From Cupriavidus necator (GTDB taxonomy: Bacteria; Pseudomonadota; Gammaproteobacteria; Burkholderiales; Burkholderiaceae), in the NCBI GenBank assembly GCA_022041995.1, contig CP074382.1:682001-746000 (forward strand): 64,000 nucleotides of DNA, in the 5' to 3' direction. The position numbers and the translations under genes were made by a program. The notes beneath the pieces were generated by a model. That model saw only the letters and a list, made by a program, of their open reading frames with translations. It was not told the origin of the DNA and ran no database searches. Of this stretch, positions 25,681 through 61,003 are shown piece by piece. The stretch's first letter is position 1, and the number at the start of each line of letters is the position of its first letter.

Positions 25681-26290
25681 CTGCTTTCCCTCGTATAACG
25701 GTTGGTCAAAGTTCTCTCGCCATGAATGACCCTGCGGAAGTCTGCCCACTTTCGTGTCGGGCAATGTTGCAGCCCGTATCCCGGCCATTACAGCCGGGCG
25801 TTCGCTTTCTCCGCATTCCTTTACCCACCGTGCCAACAGCGTTCCTTACGGTTCGCCTGCCGTCACCGGCAGCATGATGGGCTTACCCTGTTCCGCATGA
25901 ATCTCCGAGCGGGGCGGACCCTTCCTCTTCGCCGGCGGCTGGTTGTCCATGGTGGTCCAGTCTTCGAAGACCACTCCTCACCGCATACCGTTTTGGTTCA
26001 AGCCTGTCAGCACGTTTGGCTTGTCAAAGATCACGACGTTTATCAGAAGTTCACATATGTTGGTCGTACCCACTCATCCCTTGCTCCTCTCCGCCTTCGT
26101 GCTGGCAGATTCCGCTTCGCCTCGCGGCTGGGCGTACCGGTTATCCGGCGGCTACGTTGTCCCCAGAGCTTCACACCGAGCTGTTACCGGCTCCGCATGT
26201 CTGGGTAGGGAACGGTTGATGGAACAACCGGTTTCGTCAGGCCATACGTTCTCCTGTGAAACAGAAATTCAGGCGACTTGCAGGTCGCAC

Positions 26291-26335
26291 GAAGACATTT
26301 TTCGCGATGTCCACCCCGACCGTTGTGCGCATCAT
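26291..26335 (-). pseudogene. IS110-family transposase, exon 1
   Basis: ATGATGCGCACAACG… encodes MMRTTVGVDIAKNVF, the first 15 codons of an IS110-type transposase including the first catalytic Asp of the DEDD set. A good ribosome site (GGAGGGTTCGAA) lies directly upstream. The intron begins after GTCTTC. The rest is at 23717-24094. Confidence 0.85.
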
Positions 26336-26454
26336 TTCGAACCCTCCGCTGAAGGAAGTCAGTGATCTTCCTCATTCTGGCCACATTGATGCCGTCCGAA
26401 TGTGAGGAATCGCTCATTTCTCGGCTCACCTCCGGTAGGTGGGGGCGTTCATTC

Positions 26455-27565
26455 CATGCTTATCCGGTTGTCTCCCAAGCCCTCTACCGATAGTATGTTG
26501 GTCATCTGTGCCACCCCGGGGCAACCATGGTTATTGACGTGCTTGACCGAGGCGATCTGCCGTTTCCGGGCTCGCTGCCGGAGTTTCAGCGGATGTTTCC
26601 AGACGAAGCGGCATGCATGGCCTACCTTGAGCGCGCTCGATGGAGCGATGGGTTCATTTGTGACCACTGTGGCTTGCTTGGTGAGCCGTACCGCTTTGCC
26701 AATCGCCCCGGCGTTTTCCGTTGTCGCCATTGCACACGCGACACGAGCCTCACTGCTGGCACCGTCATGGAGCGCACGCACACACCGCTGTCGGTTTGGT
26801 TCTGGGCGGCGTAACTGGTCGCCAGTCAGACACCTGGCATGTCGGCCGTTCAGTTCCAGCGCCAACTCGGCCTGTCGCGTTACGAGACCGCCTTCCAGAT
26901 ACTCCACAAGTTGCGCGCCGGCATGGTGCGCCCCGACCAGGATCGGATCGGTGGCAAGCCTGAGGAACACGTCGAGGCCGATGAGGCCTACGTCGGTGGG
27001 CGTACTCGCGGCAAAGGCAGGGGCGTGCACGACATGGTTCTTGTGGCCGGCGCTGTCGAGGTTCGGCAACGCAAACTTGCCGGCAGCCGCAACAAACGCA
27101 AGAGCGGACGGTATGCCGGACGAGTTCGGCTCGCTCTGGTTCCTGACCGAAGTGCCCGGTCGCTGGGCGGATTCATCGAGCGTACCGTTGCACCCGGCGC
27201 AACCATCATCACCGACGACTGGAACGGTTATGCCAAGCTGGGCGAGCGCGGCTATGGCCATATCGCCATCGCGCAGCGCGGTGAGATGCAAGTGACCGAA
27301 TCCTTCCTGCCGATCATTCACCTTGTGTTCTCCAATCTCAAGACCTGGCTGCGCGGAATTCATCACGGTGTCAGCCCGCAGCACCTGCAAGCCTATCTCA
27401 ACGAATTCACCTTCCGCTTCAACCGTCGTTTCTATCCCTTCAATGCATTTCGCTCCCTGCTCGGCATCGCTGGTGACGTCACCGCGCCGACCTATGCCGA
27501 GCTCTATGCCAAAAAATCCCTACCCACTATATCTAGTAGGTTTGGGAGCTAACCGGATAAGCACG
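26455..27565 (+). mobile_element. IS1595-family element with 8-bp target duplication
   Basis: 1111 bp. Ends read inward CATGCTTATCCGGTTG (left) and CGTGCTTATCCGGTTA (right). GTTCATTC is duplicated at 26447-26454 and 27566-27573, the 8-bp duplication expected for IS1595. The transposase has an in-frame stop. Confidence 0.88.
26527..27552 (+). pseudogene. IS1595-family transposase with in-frame stop
   Basis: The N-terminal zinc ribbon (CDHCG…YRFANRPGVFRCRHC) leads to SLTAGTVMERTHTPLSVWFW, then TAA at 26812-26814 where an aromatic residue such as Tyr is expected. The same frame continues with LVASQTPGMSAVQFQRQLGL and the ISXO2-like DDE domain (HVEADEAYVGGRTRGKGRG, TIITDDWNGYAKL, ESFLPIIHLVFSNLKTWLRG). 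A single point mutation therefore separates it from an intact gene. Reinitiation at ATG 26839 could make a protein lacking the zinc ribbon. Confidence 0.9.
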
Positions 27566-27591
27566 GTTCATTCCATTTGTCGCGTCAGCCG

Positions 27592-28070
27592 CTAGTGTCC
27601 TGTTCCGCTAATACGTGAACAAAGTCGATGCAACTTCTCGAGAATCGAGTCCGCAGTGGCAGTCCAGCGAAACGGCTGGCAGTTCGTGTTGTACGCGGTG
27701 ACGAAATGGTCGATGCGTTGGACCAACTGCTTGACGCTGGTGAACGAGCCGCGACGGATGGCCTTATCGGTAATCAGCGAGAAGAAGCGTTCGACCTGAT
27801 TGAGCCAGGAACTGTAAGTCGGGATGAAGTGCATGTGCCAACGCGGGCGCGCTGCCAGCCAGGCCTTGATCTTCGGGTGGCTGTGCGTGGCGTAGTTGTC
27901 GGCGATGCAGTGAATATCCGATCTCTCGCAAGAACGACAGGAACTCCTGGTGACGATGGCGCGGTTTGCAACGAGCCAGCACGGCTCCATTCAGGACGTT
28001 CAGCGCGGCAAACAGCGTAGTGGTGCCATGACGTTTGTAGTCGTGCGTGACACCCTCAACGTATCCGAAT
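27592..28070 (-). pseudogene. IS630-family transposase, 3' portion (decayed)
   Basis: Reads GYVEGVTHDYKRHGTTTLFA…HRHQEFLSFLREI, then after a short deletion DIHCIADNYATHSHPKIKAW…PTYSSWLNQVERFFSLITDK with the second Asp and the Glu. The 5' portion continues beyond the IS256 at 29522. Distinct from the IS630s at 3.3 and 18.5 kb. Confidence 0.82.
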
Positions 28071-28079
28071 CCCAGGGGT

Positions 28080-29512
28080 GAGCTAAAGTCGAAAGTGGTG
28101 TACGGGCGGGGAATTTGAGGCGCGGAGTAGAGGGCGGTGGAGCTTTCCGCTGAGAATCTGATTGTCGAGATCGGAAACCAGCACACAAGAAAACTCCACC
28201 ATGAGCAAGGATAAATGTAAAGAAGCAGTCGGTCTATCGGAAATCGGGCTTGGGCTCGAGGAGCTGATCAGGCGCGGGGCCCGGCGGGTCATCCAGGAGG
28301 CGATTGAAGTGGAGCTGGCAGAGCTGCTTGAGCAGTTCAGTAACGTCAAGACCTTGAGCGGCCAGCGCGCCGTGGTTCGCAATGGCTACCTCCCGGAGCG
28401 AGAGGTGCTGACGGGTGCCGGACCGATTGCCGTGAAGGTGCCCAAGGTGCGCGACCGGTCCGGGTCTGGCGTGAAGTTCAACTCGGCGATCGTGCCGCCA
28501 TATGTGAGGAAGTCACCACGGGTGAGTGCGGCGCTGCCCTGGCTGTATCTGAAGGGAATCTCGACAGGCGACATGAGCGAGGCGCTGTCGGTGCTGCTGG
28601 GCGAAGATGCCAAAGGGCTATCGGCCAACGTGGTGAGCCGATTGAAGGCGCAGTGGGCAGACGAGCATGCACGCTGGAATCAGCGTGATCTGTCGGCGGC
28701 GCGCTATGTGTATTGGTGGGTGGACGGCATCCACACGGGTCTGCGCAGCGAGGGCTCGGACGGGCAATGCCTGCTGGTGATCATCGGCGTCACGCCCGAC
28801 GGCAGGAAGGAGCGCGTGGCGATCGGTGACGGCTATCGGGAATCGAAGGCATCGTGGGCGGAAGTACTGTTGGATCTGAAATCCCGCGGCCTGCAGGCTG
28901 GCCCGCTGGCGGCGGTCGGCGATGGCGCCATGGGATTCTGGGCTGCCCTGGAGGAGGTGTTCCCAGCCACGCGCGCCCAGCGTTGCTGGTTCCACAAGAT
29001 GGGCAATGTCCTGAACGCCTTGCCAAAATCCCAGCACGGCCGCGCCAAGGCAGATCTGCAGGCGATTTGGATGGCGGCCACCCGCGCAGATGCCTTTGCT
29101 GCCTTCGATCGCTTTGTGACGATCTACGGTGCCAAGTACCCCAAGGCCGCCGGCGTGCTCACCAAAGATCGAGACACCCTGTTGACGTTCTACGACTTCC
29201 CGGCCGAGCACTGGCAGCACATTCGCACGACGAACGCGATTGAGTCGACCTTCGCGACTGTGCGTCACCGCACGACGCGCACGCGAAATTGTGTGTCACG
29301 AGCGACCTTCCTTGGCTTGGCCTTCAAGCTGATCGAGGAAGCCGAGAAAACCTGGCGCCGCATCAACGGTGCCGAACATATCGAACTGCTCCTGAAGGGC
29401 ATCCCCTTCAAGGACGGTGCGCCGGCGCAAGACAATCCGCCGGATCAGCAGAAACTCGTCGCCTGACGACCGGCCACGATCAACCTTCGTACACCAGATT
29501 TGACTTTATCTC
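28080..29512 (+). mobile_element. IS256-family element inside IS630, 9-bp target duplication
   Basis: 1433 bp. Ends read inward GAGCTAAAGTCGAAAGTGGT and GAGATAAAGTCAAATCTGGT. CCCAGGGGT is duplicated at 28071-28079 and 29513-29521. Excising it with one duplicate rejoins the IS630 frame as QPMLPLGFGYVEGVTHDYKR, so the order is IS630 first, IS256 later. Confidence 0.92.
28201..29466 (+). CDS. IS256-family transposase
   Basis: 421 aa from ATG 28201 (MSKDKCKEAVGLSEIGLGLE), which follows AAACTCCACC; the frame extends upstream without a good start. Mutator-type motifs: YVYWWVDGIHTGLRSE (first Asp), PLAAVGDGAMGFWAALEEVF with the second Asp, AQRCWFHKMGNVLNALP (C-x2-H) and IRTTNAIESTFATVRHRT with the catalytic Glu. 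Intact and probably functional. Confidence 0.93.
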   Translation: MSKDKCKEAVGLSEIGLGLEELIRRGARRVIQEAIEVELAELLEQFSNVKTLSGQRAVVRNGYLPEREVLTGAGPIAVKVPKVRDRSGSGVKFNSAIVPPYVRKSPRVSAALPWLYLKGISTGDMSEALSVLLGEDAKGLSANVVSRLKAQWADEHARWNQRDLSAARYVYWWVDGIHTGLRSEGSDGQCLLVIIGVTPDGRKERVAIGDGYRESKASWAEVLLDLKSRGLQAGPLAAVGDGAMGFWAALEEVFPATRAQRCWFHKMGNVLNALPKSQHGRAKADLQAIWMAATRADAFAAFDRFVTIYGAKYPKAAGVLTKDRDTLLTFYDFPAEHWQHIRTTNAIESTFATVRHRTTRTRNCVSRATFLGLAFKLIEEAEKTWRRINGAEHIELLLKGIPFKDGAPAQDNPPDQQKLVA

Positions 29513-29521
29513 CCCAGGGGT

Positions 29522-29834
29522 AGCATCGGCTGCGTGCGCTCCAGTGCCTGGCACTGGCTCTTCTCGTCGACGCACAGAACCAGCGCATTGTCAGGCGGAC
29601 TCAGGTACAGACCTACCACGTCGCGCAGCTTCTCGACAAAGAAAGGGTCGGTGGACAGCTTGAAGCTCTCGGTAAGATGAGGCTGCAGCCCGAAGAGCTG
29701 AAGTAGCGCTGCACGCTGCTCTTGGAGATGCCTGTCTCGGCCGCGACGGAACACACGCTCCAGTGTGTCGAGCCGTTGGGCGGCTTGGTATGCAAAGTGG
29801 TTTGGATCAACTGCGCCGGCCCGGCACGCCGCAA
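29522..29834 (-). pseudogene. IS630-family transposase, 5' portion
   Basis: Reads [20 protein letters not shown]…SSVQRYF, then one base out of frame [20 protein letters not shown]…[20 protein letters not shown]. Upstream (N-terminal) sequence is replaced at about 29835 by the start of an IS21 istA, so the first ~100 codons are missing. Confidence 0.8.
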
Positions 29835-30140
29835 ATAGTCCCAAACCGTCGTCGGCGACATGCTCAGCGCACTGGCAATTTCCCGCTTAGATCGCCCGCA
29901 CTCAAGGTGCAGACGCAATACCTCTCTGATTTGGCGCATGAATAACCTCTTGTTCGGAAATTGGCATCTCTCGACGAAACGAAATCGTCGAGAGTGCCAT
30001 GGTTATCCATCCGGCGGGATTTTCTACCCCCGGCAAGGTGATCGGATTCCCGTAGAATCCATGGCCGCTTTGCCGTGGAATCGCCGGTCGGATTCGAGTG
30101 GAATCAGTGGTCGGCTTGGCGTGGAATACGCAGACAATCG
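29835..30140 (-). mobile_element. IS21-family left end with istA N-terminal fragment
   Basis: From ATG 29939 the minus strand encodes [20 protein letters not shown] and [20 protein letters not shown], the istA HTH, fused to IS630 sequence. From 30040 to 30135 several copies of a GGATTC…GGAATC-like repeat occur (GTGGAATCGCCGG, GTGGAATCAGTGG, GTGGAATACGCA), as in the multiple transposase sites at IS21 termini. Confidence 0.7.
29963..29998. repeat. stem-loop in the istA leader
   Basis: Perfect 10-bp stem CTCTCGACGA/TCGTCGAGAG with a 7-base loop, extended by GGCA/TGCC. It lies 24 bp upstream of the istA start in the IS21 remnant; no T-tract follows. Confidence 0.55.
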
Positions 30141-30149
30141 TCACGGCAC

Positions 30150-30302
30150 GATTATTGTGACCGGCGACGCTAGAAAAACATCGATCATAATAACTATGAC
30201 TATGCCCCCTCGACAAAGGCAATTTACGCCCGTCAACTTGACAGAGCCAAATTAGCAGATACTTTGTTTTACGGAATGTCAAAAAATGGAGGAATGGCTG
30301 GA
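30150..30302. other. AT-rich intergenic region
   Basis: Between the IS21 end and the methyltransferase stop. No gene, and no clear terminator for the methyltransferase operon. Confidence 0.4.
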
Positions 30303-31232
30303 TTATTCCGTAGGATAGTTGCTAGAGCCCCGCAACGAAACTGGTGACGTAAAATACTCGTATTTACCCGTCAAAATGCTCTGTGTGAATTGGAGTCCGT
30401 GTTTCCCAAAAATCCAGTCTTCAACCACATAGTTGCCCGTCAGCTCCGTAGGAGACGTCATGTTCCACCCTGGCATTTCAATCCGATTGACGTGTCTCGG
30501 ACGAACACCCATCGACTTGACTGCGGTAGCGTCGGCTCCAAGGGGTATACTGTCGAACAAGATTAAAGGAAGACTGTCGCTGTTCGAAAGATCGATCTTC
30601 GTCAACCCGAACTGCTCGACCGAGTTTGCTTTTCTCGAGAGAAACTTCTCAACGGCATGCACATGCGTCGGAATACCCGGATGGGAATCCCACTTCGCGT
30701 AGAAATCGGAACGAAGAATCTGCCAGTCCGCATATTGCGAGTCGAGATCGCCTCGGTCAAACGAATTGGCATGTCGACACTCGTGCGGAACTGGATAGCG
30801 AGGAATTCCAATAAACGATGTGAAGTTGTGAAATCCGCCCGGCTTAGTCCGTTGCCTCATTTCCCGAAGCAAGGGAATCCACACGTCTTTCGTCACGAAA
30901 TGTAGCGACGAGTGCGCCAAAGCTAGGTTATAATTTTCATCCGGTACGAAATCCTCGATCCGTCCCTCGATCACATTGATGTTCAACGAATAACGGTCAG
31001 CAATCGAACGAAGTTTCTTTACGGCGCTCGAGGAAAGTTCCAAGGCGGTCACCTTGTGTCCCCTGAGCGCAAGAAAGAGCGCATTTCTGCCTTCACCACA
31101 TCCGATGTCTATAACAGTCGAGTTTCGTGGTAGAAACTGTTCAATTTCAAATACCTCAACACTCGGTCCGCCCATCGTCCACACTTTCGCGTCCGAATAA
31201 CCTTTCTCCCAAAATCGCTCACTGTTGCTCAT
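30303..31232 (-). CDS. class I SAM-dependent methyltransferase (TehB-like fold)
   Basis: 309 aa. The N-terminal ~180 residues form a Rossmann-type methyltransferase: motif I VIDIGCGEGRNALFLALRG (residues 40-58), the acidic ALELSSSAVKKL motif, EGRIEDF and the LALAHSSLHFV motif. The C-terminal ~110 residues (DSLPLILFDSIPLGADATAV…WNMTSPTELTGNYVVEDWIF) are an extra beta-rich domain I do not recognise. The start overlaps the radical SAM stop by four bases (ATGA), so the two are translationally coupled. Codon use is AT-rich compared with neighbours, indicating transfer. The substrate cannot be deduced; a small molecule or peptide modified jointly with the radical SAM enzyme is the natural guess. 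Confidence 0.8.
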   Translation of the reverse strand: MSNSERFWEKGYSDAKVWTMGGPSVEVFEIEQFLPRNSTVIDIGCGEGRNALFLALRGHKVTALELSSSAVKKLRSIADRYSLNINVIEGRIEDFVPDENYNLALAHSSLHFVTKDVWIPLLREMRQRTKPGGFHNFTSFIGIPRYPVPHECRHANSFDRGDLDSQYADWQILRSDFYAKWDSHPGIPTHVHAVEKFLSRKANSVEQFGLTKIDLSNSDSLPLILFDSIPLGADATAVKSMGVRPRHVNRIEMPGWNMTSPTELTGNYVVEDWIFGKHGLQFTQSILTGKYEYFTSPVSLRGSSNYPTE

Positions 31233-32581
31233 CGTGGAACATACCTTTCTTCCAAGGTTTTCACATGGTTCGAGAAAAGATGGTGCGCGACCAAATTACT
31301 GTATTTGTAACCCTTCTTTGTCAATCGAATTTTGTCATTGGACAGTGGCTCGATGCACCCCTCAGCCTCGAGTGCATCAATCACGTCCGAAAAATCGGAA
31401 TACAGATTCCGGCCAAACTGTGATGAATAGTATGCCCCAGAAAGTTGGTTCAACGTAAGGTTGAGGATGAAATATCTCAAGCGCTCTTCGTAAGCATCAA
31501 GAACAATCCCGTACCTCACCATGCTATGTTCGGTGATTTCGAGGTTCAAATAATCTTCAATGGCCTTGCTGACCTCCTTGAGGTCGACCGCGTAGTCGAA
31601 GCTGTAGTGGTATTTTCCGTTGTAGCTTCTTGCGCCCGCTCCAATTCCGATCATCGGAACGCCGAGAAAGTCGGAAGTCTCTTGGGCGTACGCGCTGGTA
31701 TTCTCTGGCAGACGGGTGAACCTAGTGAAGGACTCTTGTCGGTATCCATTCATTTGCATGAACTCGACATTGCTATCGTAAATCGCATACTTGTTTTGGT
31801 CGTCGATGTATCGCTCCCGATGCAATCGCTGCTGCTTATGAATCGCTGTGAGAGGTCGGCTAACTGCGGGATACAGTGAGATAGTCAATGGACCTGATGA
31901 AACGATGTGGCGGAGCGAATTTTCCCAGCTTTCGTAGGTCTGACCTGAAAGGCCGTAGATGAGATCCAGATTGAAATTTTCGAAACGCTTTCGGATATTT
32001 TCTACCGCAGGGATTGTTGTCGAAACCGGGTATGGGCGACCGCTGGCCTTCAGCTCAGCTGAATCCATGGTTTGGATACCCATACTGATTCGGTTTACGC
32101 CTTGGCTTTTCAAGAAATCGAGAAGTTCCTCGGACATCGAGTCGGGAGAACCTTCGACACATAGCTCAGCAGAGGACGCAATATTTGGGAATCCATGTTG
32201 AATCGATGAAAAAATCTGCCCGAATTGTTTTTCGTTTAGAATAGTCGGGGTTCCGCCGCCAAAATACACAGATACAACAGCCTTCCTTCCGGTGTACGTC
32301 GCATAAAATTTGATTTGATCACATATCTTATCAACATAATTTTGTATTATGTCCTCTGTATGTTGGGTCGTTAGAAATAACGTACAATAGGTACACCGGT
32401 ATCTGCAAAATGGTATATGGATATATATTGAAACTGGCCCACGATCACCGGTGTGCCATACTTCCGTAATACCGATATTATTTAGATCTTTATACGATCT
32501 TTTCGAAGGATAACTATATACATACGACTTTAAGTGATTGTTACTTATAGAATGTCGAATTAAATCCGCGATTTGCTGCAT
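31229..32581 (-). CDS. HemN-like radical SAM enzyme
   Basis: 450 aa from ATG 32581, with GGAG six bases upstream; a TTG at 32593 is the longer alternative. Radical SAM cluster motif IYIHIPFCRYRCTYC with Cys59, Cys63 and Cys66 (C-x3-C-x2-C). VYFGGGTPTILN is the SAM-binding GGE-like motif, followed by VNRISMGIQTMDSAELKASG and LDLIYGLSGQTYESW as in HemN/HemW. A HemN_C-like winged domain (IGIGAGARSYNGKYHY…LTKKGYKYSNLV) completes it. HemN's fourth nearby cysteine is absent (CTLF follows). Genuine heme synthesis is less likely than a HemN-like methylase or cyclopropanase role, because it is coupled to a methyltransferase. Very AT-rich at its 5' end. Confidence 0.85.
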   Translation of the reverse strand: MQQIADLIRHSISNNHLKSYVYSYPSKRSYKDLNNIGITEVWHTGDRGPVSIYIHIPFCRYRCTYCTLFLTTQHTEDIIQNYVDKICDQIKFYATYTGRKAVVSVYFGGGTPTILNEKQFGQIFSSIQHGFPNIASSAELCVEGSPDSMSEELLDFLKSQGVNRISMGIQTMDSAELKASGRPYPVSTTIPAVENIRKRFENFNLDLIYGLSGQTYESWENSLRHIVSSGPLTISLYPAVSRPLTAIHKQQRLHRERYIDDQNKYAIYDSNVEFMQMNGYRQESFTRFTRLPENTSAYAQETSDFLGVPMIGIGAGARSYNGKYHYSFDYAVDLKEVSKAIEDYLNLEITEHSMVRYGIVLDAYEERLRYFILNLTLNQLSGAYYSSQFGRNLYSDFSDVIDALEAEGCIEPLSNDKIRLTKKGYKYSNLVAHHLFSNHVKTLEERYVPR

Positions 32582-32680
32582 GCTTTTCTCCAATCACTTC
32601 TGTATTTTGCAAGGATGGATGTGACGCGAAACTTGAAGTTAAGGGTACTCTGACCGGCGAGAGCGCCGAAATATAGAGGG

Positions 32681-32878
32681 CTACTTATGCAAGAGCGAGT
32701 AGAATTGCTGGACGGGAGAGAGTGCCCTACCGCCATCGTTCATCTGGGCTTTGCGAATCAGGCGCAGCTGGTCGAGCGTTAATGTAGGGTCGTCCATGAC
32801 GGGGTCATACCCGACGGTCTCGACATACCAGGCCAGGCATTGAGCCTGGCTCATCGTTGTGAAGCCTGGATTGCTCAT
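32681..32878 (-). CDS. small hypothetical protein (65 aa)
   Basis: Begins MSNPGFTTMSQAQCLAWYVE and has one Cys. The body is helical and acidic (DDPTLTLDQLRLIRKAQM) and the C terminus is PVQQFYSLLHK. A strong ribosome site (AAAGGAG, spacing 8) overlaps the end of the preceding gene. It sits 14 bp after the 169-aa gene and about 100 bp before the radical SAM start on the same strand. It lacks the repeated Cys/Ser/Thr core and Gly-Gly site expected of a typical modified-peptide precursor. Function unknown. Confidence 0.65.
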   Translation of the reverse strand: MSNPGFTTMSQAQCLAWYVETVGYDPVMDDPTLTLDQLRLIRKAQMNDGGRALSPVQQFYSLLHK

Positions 32879-32891
32879 AGCGTCTGCTCCT

Positions 32892-33401
32892 TTACATTCT
32901 CATAGCTGGCGCGTTTTTGGCCGCGTCTTTCCAGAACACATTGAGCTTGCTCAGCTTCTCCTGTGCTGTGCGACAAAATTCGTCGAAGTCGCCAGGTGAA
33001 TGCGCCTCCAGACGGTCCACTTCCGTCCGGAGGTGTCCGACCCCCTGTTCGAAATCATCGCGAATGCCCTTCATAACGCCGTGGATCGCGCTGGATGTGT
33101 CGTGGCTGATGACACTCGCCGCTTTGGCGGCATCCTGTGTCTCCTGCAGCGCGCGAAAGCTCGCCACGAAGGCCTTAACAAGTGCCTTCACGGAAGCGGA
33201 AGCCGCGCGCTCTCCGGACACCGAGTCATCCACAACTGCGGCAAAGGCTTGCGTCGTTGCGGCTATCGACTCGACCGCCGTCTGCACGCGCCCGCGCCGA
33301 AATGCCGCGATGGCATCTGCAGGACTTGGCACAACGCCTTTTGGCTCGCTGGCAATCTGGTTGTCGTTCATGTGCTCGGCAATCGTTGTTGTCACGATCA
33401 T
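32892..33401 (-). CDS. hypothetical helical protein (169 aa)
   Basis: Almost entirely alpha-helical and Ala-rich: AVESIAATTQAFAAVVDDSV, RAASASVKALVKAFVASFRA and GVMKGIRDDFEQGVGHLRTE. No membrane segment and no recognised domain; phasin-like or structural proteins can look like this, but I do not claim it. Start at 33401 or at ATG 33371 (MNDNQIASEPKG); neither has a good ribosome site. Coupled to the 65-aa gene downstream. Confidence 0.6.
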   Translation of the reverse strand: MIVTTTIAEHMNDNQIASEPKGVVPSPADAIAAFRRGRVQTAVESIAATTQAFAAVVDDSVSGERAASASVKALVKAFVASFRALQETQDAAKAASVISHDTSSAIHGVMKGIRDDFEQGVGHLRTEVDRLEAHSPGDFDEFCRTAQEKLSKLNVFWKDAAKNAPAMRM

Positions 33402-33476
33402 GGTCTGTGATGGCTTAGTTCTTGCCGCTGCCTATCGGGCATTCGTGCTCTGTGCGCGCAAAAGCTGGGCCTCGAT

Positions 33477-33575
33477 GAACAGCCCGATCTTGGACTTCGG
33501 GGGAATGCTTGATCTGCTTGTTCATGGCTCCATTCTCGCAAGAGTTGGAGCCTCCTCAAAACCCGGGGCGATTCA
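33477..33575 (-). mobile_element. IS3 (IS51-like) left-end fragment, copy 3
   Basis: 99 bp identical in layout to the first 99 bp of IS3 copies 1 and 2 in inverse orientation, from TGAATCGCCCCGGG (at 33575) to the orfA start. It has the five-base C run of the intact copy. It abuts the group II intron RT fragment. Confidence 0.88.
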
Positions 33576-33778
33576 GTGCCGTCTTACGGCGAATCTCGTC
33601 GAACATCCAGTCGATCTCATTCAAGTAGATGTTCGCGGCGAGTGGGCTGAATGGGCCACCTTGCGGCACCCCAACTTTGCCCGCTGCTTTGATAACCTGC
33701 TTGACCAAGTGCATGACCTGGGGATCCTGAATGCGCTTCGCGATCTTGCCCAACAGGGTCGAATGTTGGATTGTGTCA
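33576..33778 (-). pseudogene. group II intron RT, central fragment
   Basis: Reads FDTIQHSTLLGKIAKRIQDP, then KVGVPQGGPFSPLAANIYLN and EIDWMFDEIRRKT. These are RT motifs A (end) to B' of a bacterial group II intron protein. It is separated from its N-terminal half (36501-37010) by the serine-recombinase element and truncated by the IS3 fragment. Different subclass from the intron at 24-26 kb. Confidence 0.85.
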
Positions 33779-34259
33779 AAGGAAACCACCACAGACTACC
33801 CCTCTCCACCACGTTCCTGAATCTGTTGTCATCACACGATCCGGCCACCCGTTCGAGGGCCGGCGCCTCCAGGTCATCAGCCGACGGCAACGGGCCGGCC
33901 GATTGCACCTTCTGCTGACACTCCCCGACCAATCACGCGGACTCATTCCCGCCGACTGGACCGATTTCGCCGCCGGCTCCGGCAGCGTTCCGGCAAGTAC
34001 TCCCGCTCTAGCATCTGACACGCTGGGCTCGATTGCCGACCTGCTCCACGCTCGCCTCATCATTGACGCTTTGCTGCGCCAGACGGAACAGGAGAGCAAT
34101 GATGCAACTGAACCTACCCCTCGCGGATCTGCCGTCCGGCGACGACAGCCTGTGGGAACAACTCGATCCAGCGACACAAGACGCGGTAATCAACGGTCTC
34201 GCCCAGGCGATCGCGAAGCTCGTGACCCACAACAACCCGATGCCACGGGAGAGCAATGA
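33771..34259 (+). CDS. DUF5372-like protein
   Basis: Family-like region from about 33810: VPESVVITRSGHPFEGRRLQ then VISRRQRAGRLHLLLTLPDQ, RGLIPADWTDF and LGSIADLLHARLIIDALL. It matches short DUF5372 proteins that accompany recombinases of this type. The only in-frame ATG (33771) lies in the flanking RT sequence, so the true start is unclear. The frame runs on past 34099, overlapping the next gene entirely, whereas relatives are shorter; a one-base indel near the 3' end is possible. Function unknown. Confidence 0.55.
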   Translation: MCQRKPPQTTPLHHVPESVVITRSGHPFEGRRLQVISRRQRAGRLHLLLTLPDQSRGLIPADWTDFAAGSGSVPASTPALASDTLGSIADLLHARLIIDALLRQTEQESNDATEPTPRGSAVRRRQPVGTTRSSDTRRGNQRSRPGDREARDPQQPDATGEQ

Positions 34260-34266
34260 TGACTGA
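34099..34266 (+). CDS. small recombinase-associated protein (55 aa)
   Basis: MMQLNLPLADLPSGDDSLWE then QLDPATQDAVINGLAQAIAK: short acidic-helical protein of the type usually encoded just before y4bA-like recombinases. GGAG precedes the ATG pair at 34099/34102. Its stop overlaps the recombinase start (AATGATGACTGA), giving coupling. Function unknown. Confidence 0.65.
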   Translation: MMQLNLPLADLPSGDDSLWEQLDPATQDAVINGLAQAIAKLVTHNNPMPRESNDD

Positions 34267-36471
34267 CACCGCCAACAAGATCGGCCCCAGCCATTTGCAA
34301 CGCACCGCCTTCGTCTACATCCGCCAGTCCAGTGCCAGCCAGGTCGAGCACAATCGCGAATCGACGCAGCGTCAGTACGCGCTCGCTCAACGGGCCACCG
34401 CCCTCGGTTGGACCGCGCAGCAGGTCAGCGTGATCGACGAGGATCTGGGCCTCTCGGGCGCCAGCGCCGCGAACCGTGGCGGGTTCGCCCGCATGACCGC
34501 CGAAGTCGCGCTCGGGCACGCGGGCATCATTCTCGGACTGGAGGTCTCTCGCCTGGCGCGCAATAATTCCGACTGGTACCGCCTGCTGGACCTGTGCAGC
34601 ATGACCGATACGCTCATCGGCGATGCTGACGGCGTGTATAACCCGGCGCTGTTCAACGACCGTCTGTTGCTCGGCCTGAAGGGCACCATGAGTGAGGCCG
34701 AACTGCACATCCTGCGCGCGCGTCTGGACGGCGGCATCCGCAACAAGGCGGCCCGGGCGAGTTGCGCCGCGGCCTGCCAATTGGGCTGGTGTGGGGTGAG
34801 GCAGAGGGCGAAGTCAGACTGCATCCGGACGAAGCCGTTGTCGGTGCGCTGCGCGCCGTGTTCGAACGTTTTAGCGAATTCGGCTCTGCTCGCCGCGTCT
34901 GGCTGTGGTTCCGCGCCGAGAATCTGTCGTTCCCGCTGCAGCTCAATCACACCACGCAGATCCGTTGGGTCGCCCCGACCTATACCGCCATCTACAATGT
35001 CCTCACCAATCCGGTTTATGCTGGCGCCTACTGCTATGGCAAGACCCGGCAGGAGCGCTACGTCGATGAACATGGTGTGCTCAAGACCCGATTGCGTCGG
35101 CTGCCCCAGTCGCAATGGGCCGTGCTCATCCGGGACCACCACGAAGGATATCTCGATTGGATGACCTATGAAGCCAATCAAATGCGCCTGGGGGCCAATA
35201 CCAAGCCCCGGCCTCATCAGGCCGGAGGCGCCGTGAGAGAGGGGGCCGCCTTGCTGCAAGGCCTGGCCTGCTGTGGTCACTGCGGTCGGCGACTCAAGAC
35301 GCACTACCGCGGAACCAATCAGACGCCCGGGTACCATTGCTCCAACAAAGGCATCGAGAATGGCCGCGGCGTCTTCTGCCTCAATGTCGGGGGCCTGCAA
35401 ATCGATGCCGCCGTTGCGCAGGCCTTCTTGCAAGCCGTGGAGCCCGCCGGCATCGCAGCAGCCGTGCGTGCGGCCGAACGCCTCGAGGCCGATCACGACG
35501 CGGCGCTTGCACAGTGGCGACTGAATGTTGAACGTGCCCACTACGAGGCACAGCGCGCCGAACGGCGGTACCACGCCGTCGACCCCGAGAACCGCTTGGT
35601 GGCACGCGGTCTCGAAACGCAGTGGGAGCAGCAGTTGCGTGAACTCGAACAGGCTCAGGCAGAACTTGCTCGGCGTGAACAGCTTCGTCCATGCACGCTG
35701 AGCACTGAACAGCGCAAGAGTCTGCTTGCTATCGGTAAAGACCTCAAACGGTTGTGGGACGCGCCGACCCTCACACTGCGCGACAGGAAGCAATTGCTGC
35801 GCACGCTGCTCGAGGAAGTGAGTATTACCGTCCATCGCGAACAATATCGGGCGCATCTGAAGCTGCGTTGGCGCGGCGGCAAGCTCACCGATTGCGAGGT
35901 CGCCTTGCCACGCTCACGACCCGCGACCATTCGCACCGACGAAGACACGATTGCTCTGGTCCGCCGTCTGGCCGAGCACTATCCCGATGCCACCATCGCC
36001 GGCATCCTCAACACCCAGGGCCGGGTAACTGCGCGCGGTTTGCGCTTCAACCAGAGCCTCGTCGGAAACTTACGGCGGCACTGGCAAATCCCTTGTTTCG
36101 AACGCCCCACCGAACTCCCGGACGGCGAGTTGCTCAGCATCCGCCAAGCCGCTCGCGTGTTGGGTACCGCGCCGTCAACGCTGCACCGCTGGGTCAACGA
36201 CGGCTTTATCGCCGGCGAACAGACCACGCCCGGTGCGCCCTGGCGCATCCGCATCACCGATGCGCTGCGACAACAATTCGTCGCGCACAGCCCAGATGGC
36301 TACGTCGTCATGCAGGAAGCAACCAAGCTGCTCGGCGTGTCCCGCCAAACTGTGTTGCAGCGTGTAAAGCGCGGCGAACTCGATGCCGTCCTGGTCTGCC
36401 AGGGACGGCGCAAAGGCTTACGCATCAAGGCAGTCAGCGAACAACCTGACCTCTTCGAGCACGCTTCATGA
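34256..36471 (+). pseudogene. large serine recombinase with C-terminal HTH domains, one-base frameshift
   Basis: About 738 codons. The resolvase domain at the N terminus has the catalytic-Ser motif AFVYIRQSSASQVEHNRES, with GLEVSRLARNNSDWYRLLDL and the SEAELHILRARLDGG motif. Then the recombinase domain (RRGLPIGLVWGEAEGEVRLH…TYTAIYNVLTNPVYAGAYC), a zinc ribbon (CCGHCGRRLKTHYRG…YHCSNKGI) and a coiled coil follow. Two tandem helix-turn-helix modules (LSIRQAARVLGTAPSTLHRW; VMQEATKLLGVSRQTVLQRV) end the protein. At 34755-34757 GGG has one G fewer than needed to join KAARGE to LRRGLP. Without that indel the protein would be complete. Confidence 0.88.
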
Positions 36472-36500
36472 ACCAAAGGGCATTGCTATGTATGATCCAA

Positions 36501-37010
36501 GTAGCGCGACAGATCCACATCAACCACCGTCGACATGCGCCGCAGCACACTGCGTCTGACTTCCGCCAGCGCGCGGTGTGGGGACCGCTTTGGTCTAAAC
36601 CCGTAGGAGTTCGGGCAGAAGTCCGCCTCGAATACCGCTTCGAGGATTAGTTTCAGCGCACCCTGCACCACGCGGTCGCGGATGCAAGGAACCTGGAGAA
36701 CGCGGACTTTGCCGTTACTTTTCGGGATCTCTACCTTGCGGTTCGGCTTGGGTTCATACCTGCCTGTCTTGAGGTCTGCCTGAATCTCCGCAAGAAAGAC
36801 AGTGCGTCCGGATGCCTCGATGTCATTAAAGCTCAGACCATCGATTCCCGGTGCACCGCCGTTCCTCTTGGCGATACGGTAGGCCTCGTCTAGGGTTTCA
36901 CTCTTCGCAATATGCACGGAGAGCCCCCAAAAGCGATGGGTCTTGTCAGACTTCGCCTTGCGATATATCCGCCTTCTCAGTTCCTGCAGACTACTGGATG
37001 CCTTTGTCAT
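36501..37010 (-). pseudogene. group II intron RT, N-terminal fragment
   Basis: From ATG 37010 (AGGGATGAA upstream): MTKASSSLQELRRRIYRKAK, then GGAPGIDGLSFNDIE, KVEIPKSNGKVRVLQVPCIR, FCPNSYGFRPKRSPHRALAE and TVVDVDLSRY. These are RT motifs 0 to A of an LtrA-type protein. Interrupted exactly before FDTI by the serine-recombinase element; continues at 33778. Confidence 0.87.
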
Positions 37011-37528
37011 TTCATCCCTGCCTCACCTTGTTGAACGGAGTACTCACCGGTCCGGGCCCTTCCCTCCGGGCGCGTTTTGCTGCACGCCCATCGACAGTAC
37101 TACGACCCGATCCGTCACCCTTGCACCTATGCCCGCATTTCCCACTCGCGGTTATAACGGACATCTCCTCGACGGGCTTTCTCCGCCGGGTGCCGAGGGC
37201 TTCTCCAGTTTCCACGTTATCCTTCACACCATGTCGCCGCTGATACCTCGCCGGTGAGAGCTGCCGCATCGGACTCGTTTCGGACAACTCTTGCTGCTTT
37301 CGCGCGTTATAGACCGTCTCAGCCACCGGGTTTTCGTGTGACGAGGCTACATCTGCGTTCACTGCACGTTGCAACCTGGTGCGTTGCATATACTCCTTTC
37401 TGAGCATACTGTCGGAGGGCTCCGTCATCTTGCTTTCGCGCCATGACGCCTCCCGAGCTACGAGGCTTGAGTCTTTTGCCTCGGTCGGACTTTCACCGAC
37501 TGGACAACGTGTCATTATCTGGACACAC
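36501..37528 (-). mobile_element. second group II intron, 5' half
   Basis: The minus strand begins GTGTGTCCAGATAATGACAC (GUGYG consensus) at 37528, followed by the typical GTCGGTGAAAGTCCGACC helix of domain I, then the RT ORF. The intron sits in a Tn5-like transposase gene after RARWEV. The 3' half (including domains V-VI) is lost at the IS3 fragment. Confidence 0.82.
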
Positions 37529-38477
37529 CCACCTCCCAACGCGCGCGGTACCAGTCAATAAGCTGCGCCGCTGCGTCAAGGTCGTCCACCTCGCGATTAC
37601 TCAGCAGTCGCCATTCAATCGGCTTGACGCCGGCCGGCGGGTCGACCTCCCGGGCGACGATACAAGTGGCACTCACCACGCCGCCTGCAGCATCAGGCAA
37701 CGCAACACGTTGCGCCCACACCTGCTGCCGTACCGCGCGCGCTGGCTGAGCCTGACGGGCTGCCAGCGTAAAGTGAATCCTGCCCACTGGCTTGCCCGCA
37801 GTTACTTGGTCCCACAGCTTGCCGCCGCCAGGCAAGGTGCGATTGTGCTGCGAGCGCAGTAGCCAATCCGCCGGGTGGCCCAACTCCTTTGCCTTGACCA
37901 TCAGCGCCATGATGTCCGACTCTCGGTCAGCCACATAGACGAGTCGCGTGGCAGGCAGTGCGGCCGCCTGTTCGGCGACCCGCTCATATCCTTCAGTCCA
38001 GCGGGTGCTTTCCTTGATGCCGGGGCGCACGCCATCCGCACCCTTGGGCTCGCGCGCCCACATGTAGGCGTCGAGCACGCCCAGCGGTTCGCGCGCTGGC
38101 GTTACCGCGTAAGTCGGGTGCAGATATAGCCCGCGTTGCGCCTCATACGACAGCGGTCCCAGGCCTGCGATGGCCTGGCCGTTAAAGTCCAGCTCCGTGG
38201 TGTCTTGGATGCATAGCACCACTTCGCAAGCTCGCATCCGCTCGGCTGAGCTCTGCCAATGGGGCGCCAGAATATCGCGCCAGTCCAATTCATCCTGAGC
38301 CAGGAAGCGGTACGCAGCAGCCGTTTCCGCCCAGCCGCCGCACGCACTCGGTATGCTTGCCGTCGGCTTCTCTGCGAGTCGCTCCGCTAGCAGCACCGCC
38401 CGCTTATTCAGGCGCTGGTCGCCCAAGTCAATGTCCTTGAATTCTGCCGCTGCCCAACTCGTTGCCTCTCGCTGCAT
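37529..38477 (-). pseudogene. IS4-family (Tn5/IS50-like) transposase, 3' end cut by intron
   Basis: From ATG 38477: MQREATSWAAAEFKDIDLGD, then AETAAAYRFLAQDELDWRDI, LCIQDTTELDFNGQAIAG (first Asp), LVYVADRESDIMALMVKAKE (second Asp), IEWRLLSNREVDDLDAAAQL and IDWYRARWEV. The gene stops at the intron exactly where the Y-(2)-R-(3)-E signature with the catalytic Glu should continue, and the C-terminal exon is gone with the intron 3' half. Otherwise open throughout. Confidence 0.87.
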
Positions 38478-49640: not shown

Positions 49641-51629
<1,989 letters not shown>

Positions 51630-58154: not shown

Positions 58155-59249
58155 CTACGGGATGTCCCTCGAATCCAGATAGGCGCGTAGCGCGATCGGG
58201 CTGTCGGTGGTTATGAACTTAAAACCCTGCTTGATCAAATAGTCCCAGTCGCCCCGATTGTCGGCCGTGTCCTTGCCACCGCCGTAACTGAAAAAGAGAT
58301 CGGACAACCGGTAGCAGCAATGCCCGTCTTTGTCATAGAACTGACCGTCGCCTGGTCCATCAGGGATAGCGTTGAAAACGCCAGCGCCAAAGCTGGCGCT
58401 TTTGATAGCATCGAGCTGGTCTTGAAGCAACCCGCCAAGCTGCTTTACGTTGACCTCGAGCACTGAGCTCCCGTCTTTCTGCCAGTTCTCGCGAGAAGCT
58501 GTTACATCAATTTTGGTCAGCATATTGGTTGTATAGACGGGAATGGCACGAATAACGAGTGCATCCTCTCTGAATGACGCATAGGTCGGATAGAGAGTCG
58601 CGTTGACCTTCACGGCGACAATGTCGCGTGCTCGCTCCTCGAAATGTTTTCGTGCGAGGAGGTCAATAGCACGCACCGCTTCTTTGGTTTTGGCGTCGAA
58701 TATCATCGGCGTCGTCAGATGATGATCCGCCCAGTAGCTGAGCACTGCAGAGACATCAGGCACCGTATATGTTGTGGCGCTGTCACGCGAGGGCGTTAAC
58801 AGATGCAGTTGCTGGACCGTTTCCCAACTCACTGTATTGACGGCCGGATTTGGGCCGGTATTAAGCATCGGATCATATTGCGTCTTATTGCCGATGAAGT
58901 TATAGACGTCGGTCGTACGCCCCAGGTTGAGATCGTGCATGAGGACCGGTATGCCTTCGCTCGTTAGCTTCACGTCGAGCTCCACAGCGTCAGTGCATGC
59001 ATCATCTGCTGCCTGCAGCGACGCGAGCGAATTCTCGGGCGTGCGCGGGTTCGGCGCCTCTTTGCCCCAGAGTCCGCGATGCGCGAGCACTGTGACGGTA
59101 GGCTCCGGTATTGGATTAAACAAGCTGGCCATCCTTTCCTCAACTGGCGGACAGGCCGCCGACGGTTGAGGCGTAAGCATGACGGCGGTCAGAACGACAA
59201 AGCTTGAGAACCGTGTTCGTAGATGTGGCAACGCGAGCACTGGGTACAT
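58155..59249 (-). CDS. secreted glycerophosphodiester phosphodiesterase
   Basis: 364 aa from ATG 59249 (GGAG eight bases upstream). A signal-peptide-like start (RTRFSSFVVLTAVMLTPQPS, AAC) predicts export. GDPD motifs: AHRG with His57-Arg58, PENSLASLQAADDACTDAVE then LDVKLTSEGIPVLMHDLNLG with metal-binding Glu/Asp and the catalytic His of MHD. TTP-type ends YLIKQGFKFITTDSPIALRA fit the TIM barrel C terminus. It would hydrolyse glycerophosphodiesters to an alcohol and glycerol-3-phosphate. Same strand as, and downstream of, the metallopeptidase. Less GC-rich than the IS-laden flanks. Confidence 0.87.
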   Translation of the reverse strand: MYPVLALPHLRTRFSSFVVLTAVMLTPQPSAACPPVEERMASLFNPIPEPTVTVLAHRGLWGKEAPNPRTPENSLASLQAADDACTDAVELDVKLTSEGIPVLMHDLNLGRTTDVYNFIGNKTQYDPMLNTGPNPAVNTVSWETVQQLHLLTPSRDSATTYTVPDVSAVLSYWADHHLTTPMIFDAKTKEAVRAIDLLARKHFEERARDIVAVKVNATLYPTYASFREDALVIRAIPVYTTNMLTKIDVTASRENWQKDGSSVLEVNVKQLGGLLQDQLDAIKSASFGAGVFNAIPDGPGDGQFYDKDGHCCYRLSDLFFSYGGGKDTADNRGDWDYLIKQGFKFITTDSPIALRAYLDSRDIP

Positions 59250-59369
59250 AGACAACACTCCGATTGGGTATTGAAATGGGGCGTCGGACGCGACGCGTGC
59301 TTTGATGAAGACCAATAACACGTGAGGCATAGGTCTACAGAAGGTGAGTGACAGCAGCCATCCTTCGCA

Positions 59370-61003
59370 TCATTGAATCACGACGGAGAGTGAGGAGTTG
59401 GGCGGGATCTTGACCGTCTCGCTATACATACCTGTCACATTCTGCCGACCTACTGGCACGTAGGCATACGGCTGGAGCGCGGCGGGCACTGCTGATAACT
59501 GATTAGAGTTCGTTAGAAAAGCGTGCGCGTCAAAAGCGTGCGCGTCAATTACAGGCAGCACGAATCTACCTTCCTCCCGCAAGGGGAAGCCAAAGCCAAC
59601 TGGGGCGGGTTCCTTCATCAGTGCGCCTGATGTCGCGGCAAAGCCGCGCAGCTGCTGTTGAAAGCTGGAGGTCGCTGCCGTGGCCCGAATTGAAGAGTCG
59701 AGAACCGTCATCGAATCTGTGCTGCTAAAGTTGTAAAGAAGATGTTTGTAGAAGCTCAGTCCGAGTTGGCGATTGAGAAATCCACCGAGCGAGCCCCAGA
59801 TCGAATATCCGTTGCATGTACCGGTTGGGTTCCACTCAAGCAGGCTGCAATTGTGAATTCTGTCGCCCGAACGTACGTAGCTGGAGAAGCGGGCGTCCCT
59901 GATCGCATTGAAGTTCTCCCCGGTGGAGTGGCTCGCAAAGTCCTCAACATCATGGCTGTAGCTTCCTCCAGCCATAAGTCGTAGGACGCATCCGAACCCT
60001 GGGAAACGCCGCGGCGGTAGAAATTCTGCATATGCATAGCTTCATGGGCCATCGCAGAGCGCATGTAGTTCAAGGTGTAAGTGCCATCATGGGGATACAG
60101 TTCCTCAGAGTTCAGGTAAAGGGACACCGATTCGTTTGAGTATGGGTTCAGGTTCAGATCACGCTTGAGTGCGTTGCGCGCATGGAAGTATCCGGCCATC
60201 CCCCAACTGAACTTAGCGATTACGATGTCAATCGGCTGATCACTACCGATAATGCTACTGCTATAGCTTTGGGGACCCCAGAGCGGGCCACCAATTGACT
60301 TCAGCATATCGTAGATCTTGCCAGGCGAGACGAACTCGCCAGCTAGCGTGTCGACAACCGCTTGACTCACCTTTGTCGGGTCGAGTTCAGTTGTCTCGAC
60401 CCAGAAATTGACAGTGGTTCCGTCAGTTGTCTTGAGTTTCCGAACCAAGGTTGTGGTGTGAGACGTATCGTCCGCGAGATACCAGGTTTTTACCCCATCC
60501 ATATCCAATTTACTAGGAAAATAGCTTGGAGAATATCTTCGATCTTTAGCGAGCGTTTTCCAGCCGTCTCGATTGAAACTTGATATTCGGCGTTTAAGCG
60601 CTTCCGTGCCGTCGTCCCATCGTAGTTGGTCGGCGACGAGGGGATCGTACGACGTCGTTAGCGCGATTTTCGGCATAACTTGTGCAGTGCCGGTTTGATT
60701 AGTGAAAACGAGCGTTACATCCTGGCCGTTCAGCCCTGAGATGCTGATGGGAGTCTCCACAGCCGAGGATGTGGTATTAACGCTTTCCCAGACGCCTATG
60801 CCGCTACCAGCATAGGTGTGCGCGTCCAACGCTCCGCAATTCGAACAGACCTTCTCGACGAGGACCGACGCGGTGGCAGTGGACGTCGCCGCAGGATCGC
60901 CGCCGTCACCTTCCCCTCCACCGCAAGAGGCCAGCACTACAGATATCAGCGCTGCCTGAGCAAGCGTCCAAAAAGAATGCAACGTGCGCTGTTTGTACTT
61001 CAT
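59370..61003 (-). pseudogene. M30-type zinc metallopeptidase lipoprotein, frameshifted
   Basis: Starts MKYKQRTLHSFWTLAQAALI followed by SVVLASC: a lipoprotein signal with lipobox LASC (Cys27). Ser/Thr-rich N-terminal domain, then the catalytic HEAMH motif (His320, Glu321, His324; MAHEAMHMQNF) with a downstream WLEEATAMM providing the likely third ligand Glu. At about 59946 one T appears missing (coding ATGATGTTGAGG for ATGATGTTTGAGG), after which EDFASHSTGENFNAIRDARF continues in another frame to a stop at 59370. Corrected, it is about 544 aa, resembling hyicolysin-type (M30) proteases. Confidence 0.82.

Follow-up and report, generated by a model that had tools for sequence, protein, structure and literature searches.

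Two described kinds of system with a HemN-like radical SAM enzyme resemble, in part, the gene pair considered here. In the two-component C10P/C10Q system, C10P needs C10Q, by which a HemN-like enzyme and a methyltransferase can work as one system (available text of PMC6050322); the class C radical SAM methylases (e.g., NosN and NocN) share the HemN fold and a three-cysteine CxxxCxxC cluster. A further HemN-like family, STM4012, was met in our searches; searches of open-licence literature yielded no paper on this family or on the gene pair. This pair, a radical SAM gene (rSAM) coupled to a methyltransferase gene (MT), lies in a 64,000-nucleotide stretch of Cupriavidus necator DNA (hereafter the window), part of contig C3 (770,893 bases) in a 9.6-Mb genome. 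The same contig carries NodA (nodA) and nifH pieces.

Architecture of the locus

A preliminary description of this DNA had delineated an AT-rich, mobile and self-contained island of four minus-strand genes, bordered by IS elements on both sides. All four open reading frames were found in place. The rSAM gene (31229..32581, minus strand) encodes a protein of 450 aa when read from ATG (454 aa when read from TTG 32593), with a HemN fold and the cysteine motif C59-x3-C63-x2-C66, while the MT gene (30303..31232, minus strand) encodes a class I SAM-dependent methyltransferase of 309 aa, in which a TehB-like domain (approximately residues 1-201) is followed by a C-terminal domain (residues 202-309; 30303..30629, minus strand) present only in copies of the pair. 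The rSAM stop and the MT start overlap as ATGA (31229..31232, minus strand), as had been described. Since a ribosome-binding-like sequence (ggagaaaagc; 32582..32591, minus strand) directly before the rSAM ATG is conserved, together with that ATG, in 8/8 beta loci compared, the start is better placed at ATG 32581 than at TTG 32593.

The low GC content of the island was confirmed (0.43-0.50 at 30000-32999 vs 0.55-0.65 at 26000-29999 and 33000-37999, in 500-base bins), but its extent was not. By DNA match, the AT-rich segment common to the window and C. taiwanensis STM 8555 spans 30294..32760 only (in two pieces, with about 104 bases, 32594-32697, missing in C. taiwanensis), and from the junction at 32760/32761 rightwards the DNA matches ordinary, non-symbiotic Cupriavidus plasmids at 82-90%. 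Both small proteins, which had been flagged for structure searches, match Cupriavidus plasmid backbone genes: the 65-aa ORF (32681..32878, minus strand) resembles its relatives in residues 1-39 only, i.e. as far as the junction, its first 39 codons being a truncated backbone gene and the remainder entering the island, and the 169-aa gene (32892..33401, minus strand), whose stretch is not AT-rich (GC 0.606), has 83-89% identity to a neighbour of traW found in three Cupriavidus plasmids. Considering that the segment shared with a symbiotic plasmid stops where the backbone begins, the two small genes are bystanders and the module consists of rSAM and MT alone. The idea of a unit that moved between genomes, with a HemN-like radical SAM protein translationally coupled to a class I methyltransferase, thus stands for two genes, not for four. 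As for the flanks, an IS630-family remnant was recognized on the left (DNA match, about 29513..29817), but the right side is plasmid backbone, and recombinase-type DNA begins only near 33769. Between 29900 and 33500, sigma-70-like and terminator-like sites were at chance level, and no NRPS, PKS or precursor peptide was seen beside the pair in the window, in agreement with the preliminary description.

Distribution on nodulation plasmids

The search of 72,556 plasmid records returned 405 matches to rSAM (only 9 at >=60% identity), 78 to MT (only 9 over >=80% of its length) and exactly 9 to the MT C-terminal domain (E <=1). The nine records are the same by all three queries, and comprise one plasmid of C. 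taiwanensis and eight of Rhizobium (R. tropici CIAT 899, R. jaguaris, NXC24, CCGE531, CCGE532, CB3060, CB3090 and CB3171), with Calliandra, Leucaena, Gliricidia and Phaseolus as the source plants given in the records. NodA is encoded on 9/9 of these plasmids and on 233 of the 72,556 records overall. Among 299 Burkholderiaceae genomes, five carry MT/the pair and 16 carry NodA, all five being within the 16 (chance about 2e-7, the two counts taken as one draw of 299, as the genome handles agree). Within the plasmid and Burkholderiaceae searches the pair was hence found only in NodA-carrying genomes or plasmids. The reverse does not hold: 224/233 NodA-positive plasmids and 11/16 NodA-positive Burkholderiaceae genomes are without it, so nodulation itself does not depend on the pair; and, since none of the 20 NodA-positive genomes among 374 Rhizobiaceae (nor any of the other genomes) has the MT, the unit is rare.

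Six close copies were recovered from the species-genome collection (five Paraburkholderia records and one Cupriavidus), several of the copy-bearing species being Mimosa symbionts. A partial second MT piece was registered in one genome (G248). The association with nodulation plasmids was absent from the preliminary description, as were the link to pseudoazurin and fixNOQP and the exporter that forms the third gene in Rhizobium, both detailed below.

Gene neighbourhoods and regulation

The eight Rhizobium plasmids share one gene order: fixNOQP (divergent), pseudoazurin, rSAM, MT, an MFS exporter, carbonic anhydrase and a SulP transporter, with nodA2-hsnT-nodFE following in 7/8 of the stretches read (gene names nodA2, hsnT, nodF and nodE after R. 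tropici, from the available text of PMC4782375). In 6/8 plasmids rSAM begins 23 nt after pseudoazurin. The MFS gene stands behind MT in all eight (complete in the annotation of 4, fragmented in 3 and not annotated in 1); it was not found at the beta loci, and the window's genome holds no close copy (best 29%). Neighbours of the beta copies vary with the strain and include transposases, a gene resembling adenosine deaminase, a gene with a condensation domain together with a MatE transporter, and a TylF-like methyltransferase accompanied by sugar genes, so that only the pair is constant, with no common partner gene, and no fix genes lie beside it in the beta loci read.

Simple pattern searches before the beta genes recovered neither sigma-54 nor NifA sites, nor a FixK site in the strict sense, with the sole exception of a NifA-like triplet pair approximately 780 bases before the gene at locus L011. 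A weak FixK-like box with one mismatch occurs in 8/8 related plasmids, but such matches are no more numerous than expected by chance, and none was seen before the beta genes. The nod-box gene rows examined from the R. tropici RNA-seq data (PMC4782375, in part) contain none at the place of the pair (202379-204696), and an unrelated methyltransferase of the tropici pSym, which may or may not equal the MT of the pair, is named in the available text of PMC3557214.

Conservation and selection

The ATGA overlap is kept in 15/15 loci with an intact pair; a sixteenth locus (L016, Cupriavidus), in which the rSAM frame is broken, was excluded from both the overlap and the dN/dS counts. Compared with the beta loci, dN/dS was 0.21-0.26 for rSAM and 0.21-0.47 for MT, values showing purifying selection on the pair. 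The overlap in all these loci, along with the dN/dS values, shows that the two genes do not adjoin by chance, the condition that had been put forward as refuting the module. The window and R. tropici copies share 67.8% (rSAM) and 74.4% (MT) identity, close to the 69.4% of NodA (with synonymous sites saturated or nearly so), and those of the window and C. taiwanensis 89.6%, 92.9% and 88.6%, respectively. From these similar identities, the pair has diverged about as much as nodA.

Such figures bear on the notion that the pair has no role, travels passively on nodulation plasmids and is slowly decaying. Its rarity, the MFS gene broken in several plasmids, the split rSAM of L016 and the partial second MT in G248 fit decay; however, an intact, coupled pair in 15 loci under purifying selection, retained by two proteobacterial classes with a divergence like that of NodA, makes this reading quite improbable.

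The methyltransferase and its private domain

Over its first 200 residues the MT is closest to TehB: the Pfam TehB model scores 71 bits over residues 36-174 (above the Pfam domain cut-off), and the matches of other genomes end at profile residue 174. A metalloid-methylating detoxification pair with a TehB-like MT could be envisaged from this Pfam score, but the NCBIfam TehB models (70.3-86.3 bits) are far under their cut-offs of 218-303, and detoxification would leave both the rSAM partner and the nod association unexplained; we consider it very improbable.

The unexplained C-terminal domain of about 110 residues noted previously measures approximately 108 residues past the part common to relatives, and these last residues had no match in Pfam or PDB profile searches. 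Across 11 sequences it has 45 invariant positions, but it evolves faster than the catalytic domain (60% vs 84% identity between the window and R. tropici). Structure prediction of the MT reached a mean pLDDT of 30.8 (five near-identical sequences in the alignment). The viral contig scan contained no MT relatives, and three weak matches from a phage search were all devoid of the extra domain.

Placement of the radical SAM protein

The rSAM protein satisfies the NCBIfam STM4012 model (NF006067) with 416.8 bits (cut-off 380), as do the copies of R. tropici (444.8) and R. jaguaris (430.6), while a Streptomyces STM4012 member scores 588 bits. In the full-length tree the pair rSAMs form their own clade, outside and sister to that of seven STM4012 rows (support 100/99 for the grouping), with each of the two clades supported. 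L002 and L004 were dropped from the first tree by the motif filter (L039, L042 and L045 having been removed beforehand), and L004 from the second, which included a NocN stretch. Retention of an STM4012-type reaction from the ancestor, with MT replacing the STM4011/4013/4014/4015 partners, would agree with the sister position and with three scores above the cut-off. Yet these partner genes occur in 0/16 pair loci vs 3/3 STM4012 control loci, Tyr106 and Ser235 of the pair rSAM differ from 7/7 STM4012 sequences (Ala/Thr and Phe/Tyr there), and the papers searched describe no STM4012 reaction; we hold this improbable. Queries with STM4013 and STM4011 against the window's whole genome (run without a positive control there) gave no match.

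The protein groups with neither HemN nor HemW, the check that had been proposed for it: it scores 160 bits with the HemN model (cut-off 324.95) and 156.2 bits with the HemW model (cut-off 205.4), falls outside the HemW-type rows of the tree, and has, as formerly noticed, the C-x3-C-x2-C cluster without the additional cysteine of HemN (Leu68 at the position of Cys71 in E. coli HemN). The rSAM matches of the viral contig scan were distant HemN/HemW-type only (those scored being HemW), and served to deepen the rSAM alignment. A heme or porphyrin role for the cbb3 oxidase adjoining the pair in Rhizobium draws on the HemN fold and on the adjacency of fixNOQP and pseudoazurin; set against these scores, the missing cysteine, beta copies away from fix genes and a genome that already has HemN and HemW above their cut-offs, it has little to commend it.

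The preliminary description inferred a C-methylation or cyclopropanation module and named class C methylases among its examples. The rSAM would at most be a candidate class C methylase, as the closest family is the uncharacterised STM4012 and the only class C sequence used, a 218-residue stretch of NocN, grouped outside the pair clade in a weak, poorly resolved tree. The HemN fold and CxxxCxxC cluster are nevertheless those of class C enzymes, and the SAM-II side chains named for NocN (5/5) and its Tyr227 are kept in the window rSAM, the catalytic Tyr276 lying past the aligned part of NocN. As HemW proteins keep the SAM-II residues too, they are no proof of methylase chemistry. A true two-component methylase or cyclopropanase like C10P/C10Q, in which a SAM methylene radical is added to an sp2 carbon, with the MT assisting in ring closure or adduct resolution, would account for these residues and for the same two protein kinds standing side by side, C10Q being required together with C10P (PMC6050322, available text). 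Against it, the full-length tree joins the rSAM to STM4012, the NocN stretch lies elsewhere in a weak tree, and no biosynthetic cluster surrounds the beta copies; we regard it as doubtful.

A putative symbiotic role

We reason, with a probability of roughly 55%, that the pair is an accessory module, rare among legume-nodulation plasmids, by which a small molecule is made or tailored in symbiosis. The NodA association, the nodA-like divergence, the operon position in Rhizobium and the dN/dS of 0.21-0.47 count in favour of this reading; the absence of the pair from most NodA-positive genomes and plasmids, an MFS gene broken in three Rhizobium plasmids and unannotated in a fourth, the broken rSAM frame of L016, the lack of a common beta partner gene and the weak FixK-like box count against it. 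The tRNA or lipid substrate suggested earlier received no support in the analysis.

Because the cluster is oxygen-sensitive and the genes stand behind pseudoazurin, expression of the pair may take place in the low-oxygen nodule or en route to it. The rSAM would bind two SAM molecules and perform radical chemistry on a small molecule (methylene or methyl transfer, or some other radical step), the MT would act on the same molecule or complete the reaction, with its extra domain possibly holding the substrate or the partner, and in Rhizobium the product could exit through the MFS exporter. Given that most NodA-positive genomes are without the pair, the plainest reading is an accessory compound that is methylated and has limited effect. 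More ambitiously, and only tentatively, the pair might belong to a new symbiotic metabolite pathway common to alpha- and beta-rhizobia, with nodule-stage activity, MFS export in Rhizobium, and a product acting as a legume signal or a rhizopine-like nutrient or kin marker; the MT domain and the HemN-like branch beside STM4012 would then both be new.

A two-gene unit kept on the nodulation plasmids of two bacterial classes at nodA-like divergence points strongly to a symbiosis trait other than Nod factors and nitrogenase. The unit also provides the uncharacterised STM4012 branch with a tractable relative in a clear biological setting and, as the genetically workable R. tropici CIAT 899 carries the pair, direct testing is possible.

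Comparison with known systems

HemN and HemW differ from the pair rSAM by clade, by model score and, for HemN, by Cys71. TehB-like class I methyltransferases share the SAM-binding domain (MT residues 36-174) and differ by their NCBIfam scores and the absence of the additional 108 residues. The likeness to C10P/C10Q is one of make-up, a HemN-like radical SAM protein with a class I methyltransferase in both, and beyond that our comparisons do not establish membership in their kind: the MT carries a private C-terminal domain, and, as also for NosN and NocN, with which the rSAM shares the three-Cys cluster and (for NocN) the SAM-II side chains, the pair has no assembly-line or RiPP cluster and is not joined to them in the (weak) tree. 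The family closest to the pair rSAM, by model and by tree, is STM4012; common to both are the N-terminal YSYP-K-xY motif, CNLF/CTLF past the cluster and the HY-x3-YAV segment. Unlike STM4012, the pair rSAM forms a separate sister clade with its own Tyr106 and Ser235 and, in place of the STM4011/4013/4014/4015 operon, is partnered with a methyltransferase and, in Rhizobium, with an exporter.

Further copies of the pair and HemN-like genes on plasmids

Besides its intact methyltransferase gene, genome G248 was found to carry a second, partial copy (locus L010, G248:C242:4679-4954), which matches residues 161-260 of the protein at 84%. The radical SAM frame is broken in Cupriavidus sp. UYMMa02A (locus L016, 4971-6331), the assembly of which is a draft.

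An additional HemN-like radical SAM match was recovered from the contig that harbors the pair (locus L004, G000:C3:566330-566893); it shares 29% identity with the pair's radical SAM protein and has the CxxxCxxC motif. On the same contig, nifH is represented by two overlapping frames (G000:C3:364059-364873; locus L060, 4050-4900), both scoring under the family cut-off; the split reflects either a genuine break or an assembly error. The window itself encodes a complete-looking sigma-70 factor of the housekeeping type (49641-51629); it is a second RpoD-like factor, located on this symbiosis contig, a plasmid-like replicon. A glycerophosphodiester phosphodiesterase gene (58155-59330) and an M30-family peptidase gene (59756-61003) are also present in the window.

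HemN-like genes were observed on other plasmids as well. In Bradyrhizobium (locus L057, 3613-6344), two radical SAM genes, one of them HemN-like, adjoin glycosyltransferases and galE. In Burkholderia stagnalis (locus L053, 184-6329), a HemN-like radical SAM gene is preceded by two methyltransferases, a short ORF and a gene of the DUF692 (multinuclear iron) type, and the stretch looks like a RiPP-type cluster that includes a HemN-like enzyme.
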